Origin: Actinomyces sp.
GTDB lineage: Bacteria > Actinomycetota > Actinomycetes > Actinomycetales > Actinomycetaceae
Reading direction: 5' to 3'
Length of the DNA stretch: 64,000 nt
NCBI RefSeq assembly: GCF_029851875.1
Contig: NZ_JARKVC010000033.1
Location: 1-64,000, forward strand
Below, piece after piece: positions 32,416 to 39,938 of the stretch (positions are counted from its first letter, which is position 1; the number at the start of each line of letters is the position of its first letter). The position numbers were made by a program, and so were the translations under genes. Below the pieces are notes generated by a model that had not been told where the DNA came from, did not search any database, and saw only the letters and a list, made by a program, of their open reading frames with translations.

Positions 32416-33060
32416 ATGGCCAGCGCGCAGGGGGCCTCGGAGCGGGCCTCACAGGGCGGTGCTGGGTCTGTGGCGGTGACCGGCTGCGGTCAGGACCCGG
32501 TCCCTGGCCAGGAGGCACCCGAGACGCTCTCCTGCGGCCAGGGCGTGGCTGAGGAGCCAGCCCACATCGCGTGCGGCCAGGAGAGGGCCGGTGCCTGTGG
32601 ACAGGCCTCCCCCCGTCTGCTCAGCGCCCGGGAGATGGCTGCGTGGCGGGCCTTCCTGGCCGCGTCCGTCGGCGTGACCGCGAGCCTCAACCACGAGCTG
32701 GAGGCCGGGGCCGGTATCTCGATGCACGAGTACGAGATCCTCGTGCGCCTGTCCGAGGCTCCTGGCCACAGCCTGCGGATGTCCGCCCTGGCTGACCACG
32801 TCTCCCACTCCCGCTCGCGCCTGACCCACACGGTGGGACGCCTGGAGAAGGAGGGCTACGTCGAGCGCAGCTCGTGCTCCTCGGACCGGCGCGGCGTCAA
32901 CTGCCACCTGACGCCGGCTGGCCTGAGCTTCCTGCGCACCGCCGCCCCGATCCACCTCGACGGCGTGCGTCGCCACGTCATCGAGAGGCTTGACCCCTCT
33001 GAGCTGGAGCCCTTCACCTCGATGCTCACGGCGCTAGCCGACTCCGACGAGCAGCTGTGA
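32416..33060 (+). CDS. MarR-family transcriptional regulator with Cys-rich N-terminal extension
   Basis: Winged-helix core LRMSALADHVSHSRSRLTHTVGRLEKEGYVERSSCSSDRRGVNCHLTPAG; N-terminus has four CGQ motifs. Confidence 0.88.
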   Translation: MASAQGASERASQGGAGSVAVTGCGQDPVPGQEAPETLSCGQGVAEEPAHIACGQERAGACGQASPRLLSAREMAAWRAFLAASVGVTASLNHELEAGAGISMHEYEILVRLSEAPGHSLRMSALADHVSHSRSRLTHTVGRLEKEGYVERSSCSSDRRGVNCHLTPAGLSFLRTAAPIHLDGVRRHVIERLDPSELEPFTSMLTALADSDEQL

Positions 33061-36000
33061 GCCCGGAGCCGGCAGCAGGGCAGCCAGCTCTGGCCACACC
33101 GCGCTCAGCGCGGGCAGAAGCGGCAGGCTGCCGGCTCCCGGCTCCCGCCAGGACCGGCCGCTCGGCTCCAGCCTGACCCACTCCAGCCGCGCCGACTCGC
33201 CGTCGACGGCGACCAGCCGGTCCCACGCAGGATCGGCCGGCGCCTGGGCGGCGAAGGTCGAGTAGCGCCACGCACCGTGCTCCTGCACCTGCACGTCACC
33301 GAGGCAGAGCACACGTGCCGGCAGGCTGGTCTCCTCCTCGCACTCACGCAAGGCCGCCTCAGCGGCCGTCTCCCCGTCAGCAACAGCGCCCCCTGGCAGC
33401 CCCCAGGTACCGCCCTGGTGGGTCCAGCCGGCGCGCAGCTCAAGCAGGACCTCAAGACCGCCACTGCCTGCCTGGCTGGCAGTCCCCGCCTCGCCTGGAC
33501 CGGGGCCTGCCAGGCGCCAGACCAGGAGTCCGGCCGCCCCGTTCAGGCCCCAGTGCCGCGAGCCGCAGGCGCACTCCACCCAGCCGTCGCCACGGTGGTG
33601 CAGACCGCTGAGCCTCGTCACCCTCAGCACGGCGCCCGCCCCGCCTGGGGCGTTGCCTTGAGAGGTGCCTGGGAGGGCGCCGTCGCCCAGGCCGGAGGGG
33701 CCGTGGTCTGCCTGCCTGGGCCGGTAGGCCGCGTGGTCCAGGCAGCGAGCGATCCAGGAGCGGGTCCGCTCGGGCGTGACCAGCTCATCGACCCACCCCC
33801 GGGACACGGCCGTCTCACCGCTCTGGGAGTCGAGCGTGTGGCGGATCAGCGAGCGCCGCAGCTCCTCGGCGTCCTCCCCCTCCTGGCGCGCCTGGTGCAG
33901 CCGGCGCCGGTGGACGAGGTCGACGGCGCTGGAGGCGTCCATGACGCCGATGCGCGCGCCGGGCCATACCCCGGTGCGTCCGCCAGCCAGTGCCCGGGAG
34001 CCGAGGGCGACGTAGGCACCTCCGTAGGCCCGGCGGGTCACCAGCGTGAGCAGGGGGCCGCCCTGGGCCTCGTAGACGGCGTAGGCGGCCACCACCCGTG
34101 CTCCCAGTCGCACCGTCCCGGCCTCCTCGGCCTGGGTCCCGGGGATGAACCCCGGGGTGTCCACGACGGTGAGCAGCGGCAGAGCGAGCCGGGAGCACAG
34201 CTCAAGGTGCTCGGTCAGCTTCTGCGAGGAGAGCGGGTCAAGCGAGCCGGCCAGGACCGCAGGCTGAGTCGCGACGATGCCGACCGGCACCCCCTCCACA
34301 CGCGCCAGGGCGGTCACCACGTTCGGAGCCCAGGCCTTGCGCAGCTCGGTCAGCTCCCCGCGGTCCGTCAGGCGTCGCAGCAGCAGGCGCACGTCATAGG
34401 GCTCGGCGAGGTCAGCCGGGACAGTCCGGGCGGTCAGACGGTCCCCAGGCGTCACCTGGGTGCCGGCACCCCCTGTGCGTAGCGGCAGCGCCAGTCCCTG
34501 CCCGGTGCTCACCGGGGCCATGCCCACCAGGTGCCGGGCTGCCTGCCAGGCAGCGGACTCGTCCGGGACCGTCAGGTGCGCGGTGCCGGCGCGGCGGGCG
34601 TGGAGACGGGCGCCGCCCAGGTCCTCGGGGGTCGTGCGCTCCCCGGTTGAGGAGGCCAGGACCGCAGGACCGGTGAGGAAGACCTCGCCAGCCCCCTCAA
34701 CCATGATGAGCAGGTCCGTCAGCGCCGGGGCGTACGCCGCCCCTCCAGCCGCCGGCCCCAGGACCAGGCCGACCTGGAGGGTACGACCGCGTGCGCGGGT
34801 CTCGGACGCCAGGATGAGGCCGACTCCGGCCAGGGCGTCCACGCCCTCCTGCACGCGGGCTCCTCCGCCGTCGAGCAGGCTGATGACGGGGACGGCGCGG
34901 CTGGCTGCCTGGTCGATGAGCCGTGCCACCCTGCGGGCCCCGGCCAGGCCGGTAGTGCCTCCCAGGACGCCAGGGTCCTGTGCCCACACGGCCACCTCGC
35001 GCCCCTCCAGCCGCGCCCAGGCGGTGAGGACCGCGTCCTGGTCCACGAGCTCGCGCAGACTGCCGGGATCGACCAGCTTGCCCACGCGCTCGGCGGCGCT
35101 GGGACGACGCCGAGGTGCCGGGGCCGTCCTGAACCGCGCAGCAGCAGAGCCCGCCTTGGTAGCGGGGGAGAGGAGGGTGGCGGGCTCACCCGTGGTCTGG
35201 GAGGCGGAGCCCTCCGGGACCAGCCGGGCCAGGACCTCGCCCGCCCTGACGGCCCGGCCCGCCTCCAGGGCCGGCTCGGCCGGCTCGAGCGTCCCGGCAG
35301 CGGGGGCGGGTACGGGCAGACGCATCTTCATGGCCTCGATGACCGCGACGCTCTGGCCGGCGCTGACGGGACCGGGCTGCGCGGCCATGACCAGGGTCCC
35401 AGCCATGGGTGAGCGCAGCTCGAGCGCGGGCGCGGCAGGGGCGTGGACGGCCTCGGTGAGCACCGGTGCGTTCTCCGGCCACCCGGCACCCGCAGCGTGC
35501 GGGCGCAGGTGCTCCTCGACCCAGCGGGTAGTGACGCGATAGGCCGCGGGGTCGCGCATCTGAGGATCGGCGAGGACCTGTCGCAGCAGCGGGACCAGCG
35601 TGGCCGGCCCCTGGACCTCGACCTTCTCCAGCGCCGCGTCCAGGGCGTCCAGGGCCTCCTCGCGGCAGGTGGCGGCGGCTGAGACCAGGGCCAGCGGCTC
35701 AGAGAAAGCGGGCTGGAGCGCATCGCCCGGGTAGGTCGCGCGCTCCACCCGCAGGCGCGGGAGGCCCGGCGGGCGGCGTGAGGCCACCTGGGCTCTCTCC
35801 GTTCGTGCCGACAGCGGGATCGAGAGGGCCCGCAGCGGCACCTGGGAGGGCAGCAGCGTGTCCGGGTCCTCGGCGTACAGGCGAGCCTCGACGGCGTGCC
35901 CCTTCAGGCGCACGCGCGGCCCGGGACCGCGGCGTGAGGGCAGCAGGCTCCCCCCGCAGGTCGCCAGGACCTCCGCCAGGTCGCCGCCCTGGGCCAGGAC

Positions 36001-36900
36001 GAGCTGGGCGCGCACGAGGTCCATGCCGCTTGCCTCCTCGGTCACCGCGTGCTCGACCTGGAGGCGGGCGTTGACCTCCAGGAGCACGGGCGTGCCAGCC
36101 CGGGGGAGCAGGAACTCGCAGGTCGCCACGCCGCGCACCCCCGCCGAGCGCAGGACCAGGCGCGTCCAGTCCTCCAGCTCCTGGACCAGGCCCTCAGCCA
36201 GGAAGGGAGCGGGGGCCTCCTCCATGATCTTCTGGGCCCGGCGCTGCAGGGAGCACTCGCGTGTGCCCACCGTCATCACCCTGCCTGCGCCGTCGGCCAG
36301 GGCCTGGACCTCGATGTGCCTGGCGCCGGTGACGTCGGCCTGGAGAAGGAGGGGACCCAGGCCTGCCAGGCTCTGCCAGGCCCGTCGCAGCTGGCCGGCA
36401 CCGGAGCCGGGCAGCGGGAGCACGCCGCGCCCGCCCCCGCCGTGGACCGTCTTGACCACGGTCGGCCCTGCTATCTGGGTGGCGGCCTGGATGAGCTCCT
36501 CCAGGCAGGTGACCGGGCCGACAGTCAGCGGCACCGGTACCGAGAGCTCTGTGGCTCGGCGTGAGAGGGCCAGCTTGTCCGTGACCAGCTCCAGCGCCTG
36601 CGGGCTGGGACCCACCCAGGTCAGCCCTGCTTCCAGGCAGGCGTGTGCCAAGGTAGCGGACTCTGCAGCGAAACCGACACCGGGGTGGAGGAGCCGCGCA
36701 CCGCTCTGCCCGGCGGCGGCCAGGATCGCAGGGACGTCGTCGTAGGAGGGGACCTCGACGGCGTCGTCGAGCAGGCCCAGCCACCGGGCGTCGCGCTCGG
36801 CCTGCGTGAAGACCCCGACCGGGCTCAGGCCGTGCCGGCGGGCGCTGCGGGCCACCCGCGCCGCCGTGGTAGCACGAGCCGCGACGAGCAGGCGGGTCAC
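33034..36900 (-). CDS. Single-chain acyl-CoA carboxylase (biotin carboxylase - BCCP - carboxyltransferase) fused to a C-terminal NUDIX domain
   Basis: One open frame, GTG 36900 (GTGA overlap with the maf stop) to TAG 33034: BC (HGGGGRGV, ECSLQRRAQKIMEEAPAP, EVNARLQVEH), BCCP (VIEAMKMRLPVP), CT (LLDGGGARVQEGVDALAG; VVDTPGFIPGTQAE; RRAYGGAYVALGS), NUDIX box GGAVADGETAAEAALRECEEETSL. Confidence 0.9.
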   Translation of the reverse strand: MTRLLVAARATTAARVARSARRHGLSPVGVFTQAERDARWLGLLDDAVEVPSYDDVPAILAAAGQSGARLLHPGVGFAAESATLAHACLEAGLTWVGPSPQALELVTDKLALSRRATELSVPVPLTVGPVTCLEELIQAATQIAGPTVVKTVHGGGGRGVLPLPGSGAGQLRRAWQSLAGLGPLLLQADVTGARHIEVQALADGAGRVMTVGTRECSLQRRAQKIMEEAPAPFLAEGLVQELEDWTRLVLRSAGVRGVATCEFLLPRAGTPVLLEVNARLQVEHAVTEEASGMDLVRAQLVLAQGGDLAEVLATCGGSLLPSRRGPGPRVRLKGHAVEARLYAEDPDTLLPSQVPLRALSIPLSARTERAQVASRRPPGLPRLRVERATYPGDALQPAFSEPLALVSAAATCREEALDALDAALEKVEVQGPATLVPLLRQVLADPQMRDPAAYRVTTRWVEEHLRPHAAGAGWPENAPVLTEAVHAPAAPALELRSPMAGTLVMAAQPGPVSAGQSVAVIEAMKMRLPVPAPAAGTLEPAEPALEAGRAVRAGEVLARLVPEGSASQTTGEPATLLSPATKAGSAAARFRTAPAPRRRPSAAERVGKLVDPGSLRELVDQDAVLTAWARLEGREVAVWAQDPGVLGGTTGLAGARRVARLIDQAASRAVPVISLLDGGGARVQEGVDALAGVGLILASETRARGRTLQVGLVLGPAAGGAAYAPALTDLLIMVEGAGEVFLTGPAVLASSTGERTTPEDLGGARLHARRAGTAHLTVPDESAAWQAARHLVGMAPVSTGQGLALPLRTGGAGTQVTPGDRLTARTVPADLAEPYDVRLLLRRLTDRGELTELRKAWAPNVVTALARVEGVPVGIVATQPAVLAGSLDPLSSQKLTEHLELCSRLALPLLTVVDTPGFIPGTQAEEAGTVRLGARVVAAYAVYEAQGGPLLTLVTRRAYGGAYVALGSRALAGGRTGVWPGARIGVMDASSAVDLVHRRRLHQARQEGEDAEELRRSLIRHTLDSQSGETAVSRGWVDELVTPERTRSWIARCLDHAAYRPRQADHGPSGLGDGALPGTSQGNAPGGAGAVLRVTRLSGLHHRGDGWVECACGSRHWGLNGAAGLLVWRLAGPGPGEAGTASQAGSGGLEVLLELRAGWTHQGGTWGLPGGAVADGETAAEAALRECEEETSLPARVLCLGDVQVQEHGAWRYSTFAAQAPADPAWDRLVAVDGESARLEWVRLEPSGRSWREPGAGSLPLLPALSAVWPELAALLPAPGSQLLVGVG

Positions 36901-37610
36901 GGGTGCGCCCCGCTTGAGGCCGGTGCGTGACCGGCGACCGGCTGCGGGCCCGGCCGGCCGGCCTCCAGGTCCCACAGGTCCGTCCAGACCACGCCCAGCT
37001 CTGTGACCAGGCGGCGCAGCAGCGGCAGGGACAGGCCGACCACGCCGTGCGGATCGCCCTCGACCCCCTCGATGAAGGCTCCTCCCAGGCCGTCGATCGT
37101 GAAGGCGCCGGCGCACCACAGCGGCTCCTCGGAGGCGACGTAGGCCTCGATCTCCGCCTCGGAGGGGAAGGCGAAGCGGACGAGCGTGGAGGAGACCCCC
37201 TCGACTCCCTGCCCGTCGCCAGCGCGGATGACGGTGTGACCGGTGTACAGCGTCCCGCTGCGCCCACGCATGGCCAGCCAGCGCTCGCGGGCTGCCTGCG
37301 GGCTGCGCGGCTTGCCGACCACCTGAGCGTCGATCTCCAGCATGGAGTCGCACCCGACCACGAGCAGCGCCGGGTCGGTCGCCACCTCCTGAGGGCTGAG
37401 CGTGGAGGCCACCGCGTGGGCCTTGGCCCGAGCCAGGGCCTGGACCTGCTCGGCCGGCCCCGGAGCAGGGGCCCCGCTGCGGGTGGCGGCGGCAGCGAGC
37501 TCGGCGAGCACCGCAGGCTCGTCGACCTCGGAGGCCTGGACCCGTGGGGTGATCCCGGCGGCACGCAGGGTGGCGAGGCGGCCGGAGGACTTCGAGGCAA
37601 GGAGAATCAC
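36897..37610 (-). CDS. maf: Maf-family nucleoside triphosphate pyrophosphatase
   Basis: LLASKSSGRLATLRAAGI, CDSMLEID, YTGHTVI, Y(V)ASEEPLWCAGAFTIDGLGGAFIE. Confidence 0.92.
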   Translation of the reverse strand: MILLASKSSGRLATLRAAGITPRVQASEVDEPAVLAELAAAATRSGAPAPGPAEQVQALARAKAHAVASTLSPQEVATDPALLVVGCDSMLEIDAQVVGKPRSPQAARERWLAMRGRSGTLYTGHTVIRAGDGQGVEGVSSTLVRFAFPSEAEIEAYVASEEPLWCAGAFTIDGLGGAFIEGVEGDPHGVVGLSLPLLRRLVTELGVVWTDLWDLEAGRPGPQPVAGHAPASSGAHP

Positions 37611-37676: not shown

Positions 37677-38684
37677 GTGCACCACTCCTGCCCGACAGAC
37701 CCGCACGAGGCCGACACCCAGGCGCCGAGCGGGAGGGCCTCAGGGTCTGAGGCCACGGCGCGCGCTCCTCGTCACGTCCTGGTTCCACGCACCGGCTCGA
37801 CCAACGACGACCTGCGCTCCGCGCTGACCGGAGCGGACGGTCTGCTGGACCTGCAGGCGGCCCGTGCCTGGCCGCACCTGTCCTGCCTACGAGCCGTGGA
37901 GCAGACGGCGGGCCGGGGCCGAGGTGGGCACGTGTGGACCACTCCACCGCGTGGCGCGCTGACCATCTCCTTCGTGCTGCGGCCCCTGGTGCCTGTGGAC
38001 CGTCTGGCCTGGCTGCCGCTTCTGGCCGGCCTGGCGGTCCACGACGCCCTGACCGAGGACGACTGCCTCGCCCGGTGCGGCTGGAGGGCTGCCACCAAGT
38101 GGCCCAACGACGTCGTCCTCCTTCCTGCTGCACGCACGCCCTCGTCCGCGAGCCCGTCCACCGGCCTGGAGAAGCTTCCTGGCTGGGGCCGGGCGCGCAA
38201 GGTTGCCGGAGTCCTGACCGAGCTCGTCCTGCCTGCGCAGGCGCTCAGGACCGAGCACGGCTCCTGGCGGCCGGCCGGGCGGGACCAGGCCCCCGCCGTC
38301 GTCCTCGGCATCGGGATCAACGTGGGTCAGCGCCCTGAGCGGCTGCCTGTGGACTGGGCGACCTCCCTGGCCTGTGCCGGTTGGGAGGTGGAGGTCGAGG
38401 AGGTGGCGCAGCGACTGGCTGCTCACCTGGCGCGGCTCGTCGGGCAGTGGGAGGCCGCCGACGGCGACCCGGACCGACATGGTCGGGACACGGGCCTGGG
38501 AGGACGGCTCCGCCAGGTGTGCTGGACCTTGGGCCGGCAGGTGCGTGTGCGTACCCCTGCCGGGGCGGTGGACGGCGAGGTGGTGGACCTGCGTCCAGGC
38601 CTGGTGCTGCGAGGGCCCCGGGGAGAGGTCCTGGTCCAGGCCGGTGACGTGGAGGACCTGCGGGAGGGGGAGTGGCCCGAGTGA
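37677..38684 (+). CDS. birA: Biotin-[acetyl-CoA-carboxylase] ligase (no HTH domain)
   Basis: GSTNDDL, EQTAGRGRGGHVW, KWPNDVV, GIGINV motifs. Confidence 0.92.
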   Translation: MHHSCPTDPHEADTQAPSGRASGSEATARAPRHVLVPRTGSTNDDLRSALTGADGLLDLQAARAWPHLSCLRAVEQTAGRGRGGHVWTTPPRGALTISFVLRPLVPVDRLAWLPLLAGLAVHDALTEDDCLARCGWRAATKWPNDVVLLPAARTPSSASPSTGLEKLPGWGRARKVAGVLTELVLPAQALRTEHGSWRPAGRDQAPAVVLGIGINVGQRPERLPVDWATSLACAGWEVEVEEVAQRLAAHLARLVGQWEAADGDPDRHGRDTGLGGRLRQVCWTLGRQVRVRTPAGAVDGEVVDLRPGLVLRGPRGEVLVQAGDVEDLREGEWPE

Positions 38685-38717
38685 GCCTTCTCATGTGATC
38701 TGCGCTACTGTTGCGTG

Positions 38718-39938
38718 GTGACTGACCAGCTTGAGCCCAGCCAGCCCGGAGGAGGCGGGCCCCGCATGCCTTCCCGTCCGCAGACCTCAGACCTGACGGC
38801 GACACCCCCCGGCGGCCCCGGTGCCTGTGCCCCTGACCGTGTGGTCGTCGAGGCGGCCGCGCCGCCCCCGGCTACCTGGGACACGATCAGCGGCCACGAG
38901 AAGCGGCTGCTGGGGGCCGTGCCCAGCCTCACCTTCCAGCAGGTGGCCCAGGAGGCCGGTACCAGCGTGGAGCTGGCGCGCCGCTTCTGGAGGGCGATGG
39001 GCTTCGCTGACGCCCAGCCTGACGCGGTGCGCTTCACCGAGGCCGACGTCGAGGCGCTGCGGGCCCTGTCCGAGATGGTCGGCCTAGGCGGCCAGGCCTC
39101 GCAGGACGGCCCTGGGAGCGCTGGCGGCCTGGGGGCTGTCGGCGGCCTGGCGACCTCCAGCGCGCTGGAGATGCTGCGCGCCCAGTCCTACACGATGGAC
39201 CGCCTGGTCCTGTGGCAGCTGGAGACCCTCGTCTCCGACGTCGCCCAGCGCTACGACCTCGATGACACCTCAGCCCGCCTCGTGGCACTGGACCGGATCG
39301 AGGAGCTGCTGGAGCCGCTGCGCACCCAGCTCGACTACGTCTGGCGCCGCCACCTGACGTCGCTGCTCTCGCGTACCGAGTCCGAGGTGGCCAAGCGCGG
39401 CAAGGAGGAGACGGGGCCCGACCTGTACCCGCTCACCCGCTCCCTGGGCTTCGTCGACATCGTCTCCTTCACCCAGCGGGCCCAGACCATGGGACGTACC
39501 GAGCTGGAGACGATGCTGACGGACTTCGAGAACACGGCGCGCGACGTCGTGACCTCCCGCGGGGCCCGCGTGGTCAAGACCATCGGTGACGCCGTCATGT
39601 ACATCGCCGACGACGTCACGACCGCCGCTGACGTCGTGACCGCCCTGGTCGAGGAGCTTCAGCGCGGGCCGGAGATGATCCGGGTGCGTGCCTCGCTGGT
39701 GCAGGGGCGGGTTGTCTCGCGCTCGGGCGACGTCTTTGGCCCGCCGGTCAACCTGGCCTCCCGCCTGGTGGACACCGCCGAGCCTGGCGGGATCCGCATG
39801 GATGAGCAGACCGCCCACGCCCTCACGCGGGGGCCGCAGGCGCAGCGCTACGTCGTGCGTGAGTGCCACGAGGTCGTGGCCAAGGGGCTGGGCAACATCG
39901 TGCCCTGGTCCCTGGAGCGGGCTGGTGGCGGGCACTGA
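38718..39938 (+). CDS. Class III adenylate/guanylate cyclase with N-terminal regulatory domain
   Basis: FVDIVSFT, VVKTIGDAVMY, GDVFGPPVNLASRL; N-terminus like the Rv1264 regulatory region; GTG 38718 preceded by TACTGT-N6. Confidence 0.87.
   Translation: MTDQLEPSQPGGGGPRMPSRPQTSDLTATPPGGPGACAPDRVVVEAAAPPPATWDTISGHEKRLLGAVPSLTFQQVAQEAGTSVELARRFWRAMGFADAQPDAVRFTEADVEALRALSEMVGLGGQASQDGPGSAGGLGAVGGLATSSALEMLRAQSYTMDRLVLWQLETLVSDVAQRYDLDDTSARLVALDRIEELLEPLRTQLDYVWRRHLTSLLSRTESEVAKRGKEETGPDLYPLTRSLGFVDIVSFTQRAQTMGRTELETMLTDFENTARDVVTSRGARVVKTIGDAVMYIADDVTTAADVVTALVEELQRGPEMIRVRASLVQGRVVSRSGDVFGPPVNLASRLVDTAEPGGIRMDEQTAHALTRGPQAQRYVVRECHEVVAKGLGNIVPWSLERAGGGH

Follow-up and report, generated by a model that had tools for sequence, protein, structure and literature searches.

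A conserved single-chain acyl-CoA carboxylase carrying a RenU-like NUDIX domain in Actinomyces

INTRODUCTION

Why should an acyl-CoA carboxylase and a NUDIX domain be encoded as one protein, how did such a protein come about, and what does the NUDIX domain do in it? These questions are raised by a gene in the window, the stretch of 64,000 nucleotides of Actinomyces DNA analysed here, in which the initial annotation had read a carboxylase and a NUDIX domain in one uninterrupted frame. The best explanation that we can offer, and one that we hold with moderate confidence, is a single-chain short-chain acyl-CoA carboxylase with a tethered RenU-type Nudix enzyme, which would have originated by stop loss and whose activities would be independent of each other. 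No description of a Nudix–carboxylase fusion was found in the literature searched, which comprised open-licence papers only. The protein is a conserved new architecture built of known parts.

RESULTS

The fusion gene and its surroundings

The frame runs from 36900 to 33034 on the minus strand without interruption and encodes 1288 amino acids and a stop codon (133.7 kDa), so the continuity of carboxylase and NUDIX was confirmed. Pfam domains, each above its curated cut-off, follow in the order biotin carboxylase (BC), BCCP, carboxyltransferase (CT) and NUDIX (Table 1). The BC part comprises Biotin_carb_N (residues 2–103), CPSase_L_D2 (108–310) and Biotin_carb_C (338–463), and the rest comprises Biotin_lipoyl (494–560), Carboxyl_trans (617–1062) and NUDIX (1151–1245). 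The GTG start of the fusion shares the bases GTGA with the stop codon of maf, and joint translation of the two genes is therefore likely. BirA and a nucleotide cyclase gene lie on the far side of maf and point away from the fusion, whose 3′ end is approached convergently by the genes of a MarR regulator and a MaoC-like protein. The position of MarR is kept in most Actinomyces loci, even in those without the carboxylase.

Table 1. Coordinates of the fusion gene, its predicted domains and its neighbours in the window
Feature	Position	Strand	Remarks
Whole fusion gene, BC-BCCP-CT-NUDIX	33034..36900	(-)	GTG start, 1288 aa; same architecture in 11/49 Actinomyces genomes
Biotin carboxylase domain, residues 2-463	35512..36897	(-)	AccA3-like; Pfam, PDB search, alignment; active-site motifs intact
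BCCP domain, residues 494-560	35221..35421	(-)	Biotin site EAMKM; Lys525 at 35326-35328
Carboxyltransferase domain, N and C halves, residues 617-1062	33715..35052	(-)	PccB/AccB type
CT-NUDIX linker	33595..33714	(-)	Length and sequence variable; dN/dS ~0.8-0.9
RenU-like NUDIX domain	33037..33594	(-)	Pfam, sequence match, AlphaFold model, fold match
Nudix box GAVADGETAAEAALRECEEETSL, residues 1171-1193	33322..33390	(-)	
Maf nucleotide pyrophosphatase gene	36897..37610	(-)	Pfam; stop overlaps fusion start (GTGA)
Biotin protein ligase (BirA)	37677..38684	(+)	Divergent; member of conserved cluster; synteny
Nucleotide cyclase gene beside BirA	38715-39938		Kept in cluster across families, also in L121 and L218
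MarR-family regulator	32416-33060		Converges on fusion; 3′ end overlaps NUDIX end by 27 bases

Conservation of the fusion in Actinomyces

A search of 49 genomes of the genus Actinomyces found a close relative of the fusion CT in 11, and the remaining genomes had an ordinary AccB-type CT alone. At the same locus, BC, BCCP, CT and NUDIX are in frame in 11/11 of these single-chain carboxylases. A. urogenitalis DSM 15434 (L013) and A. haliotis (L012) are among the named carriers. The most divergent member (G002) has 48% identity. From the last CT motif to the start of NUDIX, the linker measures 23–85 residues and is stop-free in all 11 genomes. Moreover, this single-chain carboxylase was seen without NUDIX in none of the 49 genomes: NUDIX is present in 11/11 genomes that bear the carboxylase versus 5/38 that lack it (Fisher p 1.5e-7, without correction for relatedness). 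Such strict co-occurrence could mean that the two parts work together, and it therefore leaves room for functional coupling.

Type of carboxylase

The CT is most similar to 1vrg (327 bits) and S. coelicolor PccB (317 bits), compared with 123 bits for LCC (4rcn), and in a PDB search the BC was nearest to mycobacterial AccA3 (241 bits versus 177 for LCC). By sequence, the CT is thus of PccB/AccB type and not LCC. The protein had earlier been filed with the mycobacterial LCC; its domain order agrees with that assignment, but the bit scores of both CT and BC rule it out. In addition, the window genome holds an ordinary AccA and CT pair on another contig (G000:C41), which makes the fusion a second carboxylase.

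The residue aligned with D422 of ScPccB and I420 of ScAccB is Val in the window CT. In S. coelicolor and T. fusca CTs, an Asp in this place gives a preference for propionyl-CoA, and an Ile a broader range or better use of acetyl-CoA (PMC7835884). Val is closer to the broad acetyl/propionyl/butyryl type, which makes it likely that the fusion carboxylase accepts a wide range of short-chain substrates.

Active sites and selection

In an alignment of the fusions, the BC active-site motifs are kept, apart from minor departures in the most divergent member; we take these motifs to correspond to K116, K159, H209, K238, E276, E288–E296 and R338 of the E. coli enzyme. The same holds for the biotin site EAMKM and, in CT, for the motifs GGARVQEG and DTPGF.PG, again with slight deviations in the most divergent of the aligned members. 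Every fused member retains the Nudix acids, and among the wider set of orthologues the acids of the Nudix box (RECEEE in the window protein) are kept in 87 of 88. An invariant Glu follows ~43 residues beyond the box. The substitution of Ser for the usual Gly in the box, pointed out in the initial annotation, is real, and this position is variable: across the 88 orthologues it is Gly in 69 and Asn in 9, and Ser occurs in the window genome only.

Two further features concern BC. Residue 221 of the window protein (in RRAQK) presumably corresponds to His236 of E. coli BC. Fused BCs have Ala, Ser or Trp there, and the window genome's ordinary AccA has Asn. The G002 protein (locus L118) has a loop of ~55 residues inserted between the motifs equivalent to Glu276 and Glu288.

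Ratios of dN/dS (Nei–Gojobori) were calculated for the window fusion against A. urogenitalis (G060) and against G008. These were, respectively, 0.22 and 0.22 for CT, 0.30 and 0.24 for NUDIX, 0.09 and 0.18 for the Nudix box, and 0.78 and 0.89 for the linker. Judged by these ratios, purifying selection acts on the protein sequence of NUDIX but hardly at all on the linker, which behaves as a free tether. Low values in the domains and high values in the linker make the fusion look like two active enzymes that are loosely tethered. A pseudogene or dead enzyme was considered and is unsupported, as motifs are intact and dN/dS is constrained; even G002 retains nearly all key residues.

Relationship of the NUDIX domain

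Substrates of Nudix enzymes are hard to predict from sequence. The best sequence match of NUDIX is RenU (6uuf, E 4e-16; the next has 1e-7), and RenU is also the best fold match of an AlphaFold model of the domain (pLDDT 87, pTM 0.83), with E 1e-10 and 36% identity compared with 2e-7 for the next entry. The CoA pyrophosphatase 1nqz appears among the fold matches (E 4e-7), with 1nqz/1nqy below RenU by both sequence and fold, and no CoA-specific NCBIfam model matched NUDIX. Inspection by eye found neither the ADP-ribose signature proline nor the NADH motif SQPWPFP in NUDIX; the printed sequence of RenU also lacks the proline there, so the comparison carries no weight either way. A model of CT and NUDIX together (714 aa, from an alignment of 3 sequences) had a mean pLDDT of 39.5, too low to speak for or against an interface.

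The preferred substrates of M. smegmatis RenU are ADP-ribose, FAD and NADH, and its hydrolysis of CoA is poor (PMC4401782); Maf proteins are nucleotide pyrophosphatases (PMC3899018). Because of the homology to RenU and the genome context, NUDIX most likely acts apart from carboxylation, in cleaning up nucleotides or turning over cofactors.

Gene cluster and origin of the fusion

Separate genes in the order cyclase–BirA and, divergently, CT–Maf–AccA3–NUDIX occur in L218, which belongs to another genus of the family of Actinomyces, and in L121, which belongs to another family of the order. Maf, AccA3 and NUDIX also lie side by side in Cellulomonas, Sanguibacter and others, where the NUDIX match often begins no more than a few dozen bases from the AccA3 stop. 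Upstream sequence of at least 3 kb was available for 63 NUDIX loci; Maf is found upstream in 40 of these, and Maf together with a BC gene in 32. At the Actinomyces locus, cyclase and BirA are divergent from Maf, and MarR converges in most. There, Maf is followed by the fusion (11 genomes), by a lone NUDIX (5) or by neither, as seen directly in two genomes of the last kind. In all five carboxylase-free Actinomyces genomes with NUDIX, this gene comes directly after Maf. In Bifidobacteriaceae, one ORF encodes both Maf and the orthologous NUDIX in 25/25 loci (among them L047:5080-6489; one locus was analysed with Pfam), so that two nucleotide-cleaving enzymes share a chain.

Thus, NUDIX has been fused at least twice, each time to the gene directly upstream. 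Repeated fusion with whichever gene lies upstream favours simple stop loss in a tight cluster and speaks against any particular requirement for a carboxylase as partner; the fusion probably arose by two neighbouring genes running together. In trees, the fused BCs form one clade and so do the fused CTs (100/100 each), and a single origin of the chain is therefore probable. Fused CT branches are longer than those of the ordinary Actinomyces CT, and in the BC and CT trees, where branches are long, the nearest unfused lineage takes no firm placement. The backbone of the Actinomyces tree likewise gives no firm order for gain and loss of NUDIX and carboxylase. The longest branch in both the BC and the CT tree is that of the G002 protein.

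DISCUSSION

According to the explanation that we favour, an ancestral actinobacterial cluster would have consisted of BirA and, divergently, CT, Maf, AccA3 and NUDIX. In Actinomyces, CT would have come between AccA3 and NUDIX, and the intervening stop codons would have been lost. In the resulting protein, biotin on BCCP would be carboxylated by BC and then brought to CT, which would carboxylate acetyl-, propionyl- or butyryl-CoA. NUDIX would on its own cleave nucleoside-diphosphate compounds, for example ADP-ribose, FAD or NADH, and may form a clean-up pair with Maf. Hence, the two activities would have expression and copy number in common and no common reaction path.

A more intimate relation was proposed in the initial annotation, in which NUDIX proofreads or limits the acyl-CoA product. 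If NUDIX served the carboxylase in this way, it would cleave CoA esters or a side product and thereby limit or proofread the malonyl- or methylmalonyl-CoA pool. The constant company of NUDIX with the Actinomyces carboxylase, the presence of a BC gene and NUDIX at one locus (32/63) and the CoA pyrophosphatase among the fold matches all speak for such a service. However, RenU is a much closer match and poor on CoA (PMC4401782), no CoA-specific NCBIfam model matched, and orthologues occur without carboxylase, next to Maf or joined to it instead. We consider this service unlikely; sequence and context agree better with a nucleotide clean-up that is independent of the carboxylase than with proofreading of acyl-CoA.

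A little less likely still is that the RenU-like NUDIX couples acyl-CoA carboxylation to the state of the redox or nucleotide pool (NADH, FAD, ADP-ribose). If this were true, the fusion would be a bifunctional enzyme joining the supply of fatty-acid precursors to cofactor turnover. NUDIX could also be a sensor or regulatory domain, in which binding of NADH, FAD or ADP-ribose alters carboxylase activity. The fusion has been maintained over divergence as deep as that of G002, and in mycobacteria the PknG–L13–RenU system ties RenU to NADH levels (PMC4401782). Against this, the linker is almost without constraint at 23–85 residues, and retention of all catalytic glutamates indicates that NUDIX is no binding-only relic, so that we regard a sensor as improbable.

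We give slightly less credence to two proteins, produced either by cleavage of the chain in the linker or by additional translation of NUDIX from an internal GTG (33628–33630). Linkers are variable and look disordered, and GTG codons are present in that of the window and in most others. Those of the window are at 33628–33630 and 33619–33621, a small correction to the internal GTG placed near 33632 in the initial annotation. However, CT lacks a terminating stop in 11/11 genomes, the L113 linker contains no ATG, GTG or TTG, and neither a conserved start nor a conserved cleavage site was seen in the linkers. An assembly or sequencing artefact that joined two genes, conceivable in a draft genome of 47 contigs and 90% completeness, has practically no chance and was ruled out, as ten further genomes, single-contig ones among them, carry the same in-frame fusion.

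Returning to independent activities on one chain, the neighbour signal and the two separate fusions place a RenU-like Nudix with Maf and acyl-CoA carboxylase in Actinomycetes. The role of this Nudix can be tested in culturable species, for example A. urogenitalis and A. haliotis. Our results also suggest more than one origin of bacterial single-chain carboxylases, with a pair of AccA3/PccB type as the starting material in this case.

Several known systems can be compared with the fusion. The mycobacterial LCC shares the BC–BCCP–CT order in a single chain, but it has no NUDIX and its CT and BC match those of the fusion less well than PccB-type CT and AccA3 do; the two single chains were likely assembled independently. 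SACE_4237 of Saccharopolyspora, a eukaryote-like multidomain ACC of ~200 kDa with a central region and a CT related to that of eukaryotic ACC, is another actinobacterial single chain holding all carboxylase domains, but no NUDIX is described in it (PMC6491548). The AccA3 plus PccB/AccB carboxylase resembles the fusion in its parts: BC–BCCP is nearest to AccA3 and CT to PccB/AccB, active sites are intact, and the locus is shared with BirA and Maf. It has separate alpha and beta subunits, whereas the Actinomyces protein is one chain in 11/11 genomes, with NUDIX added and no epsilon subunit noticed at its locus. For the NUDIX part, RenU (formerly MutT3; Rv0413/MSMEG_0790; PDB 6uuf) is closest in sequence and fold and has the start GDGWV...WG..GAAGLL in common; unlike the NUDIX of the fusion, which is 36% identical and joined to a carboxylase, RenU is a free-standing protein whose gene adjoins pknG. 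The Maf–NUDIX proteins of Bifidobacteriaceae also have an orthologous NUDIX joined to the immediate upstream gene, but there the partner is Maf and not a carboxylase.
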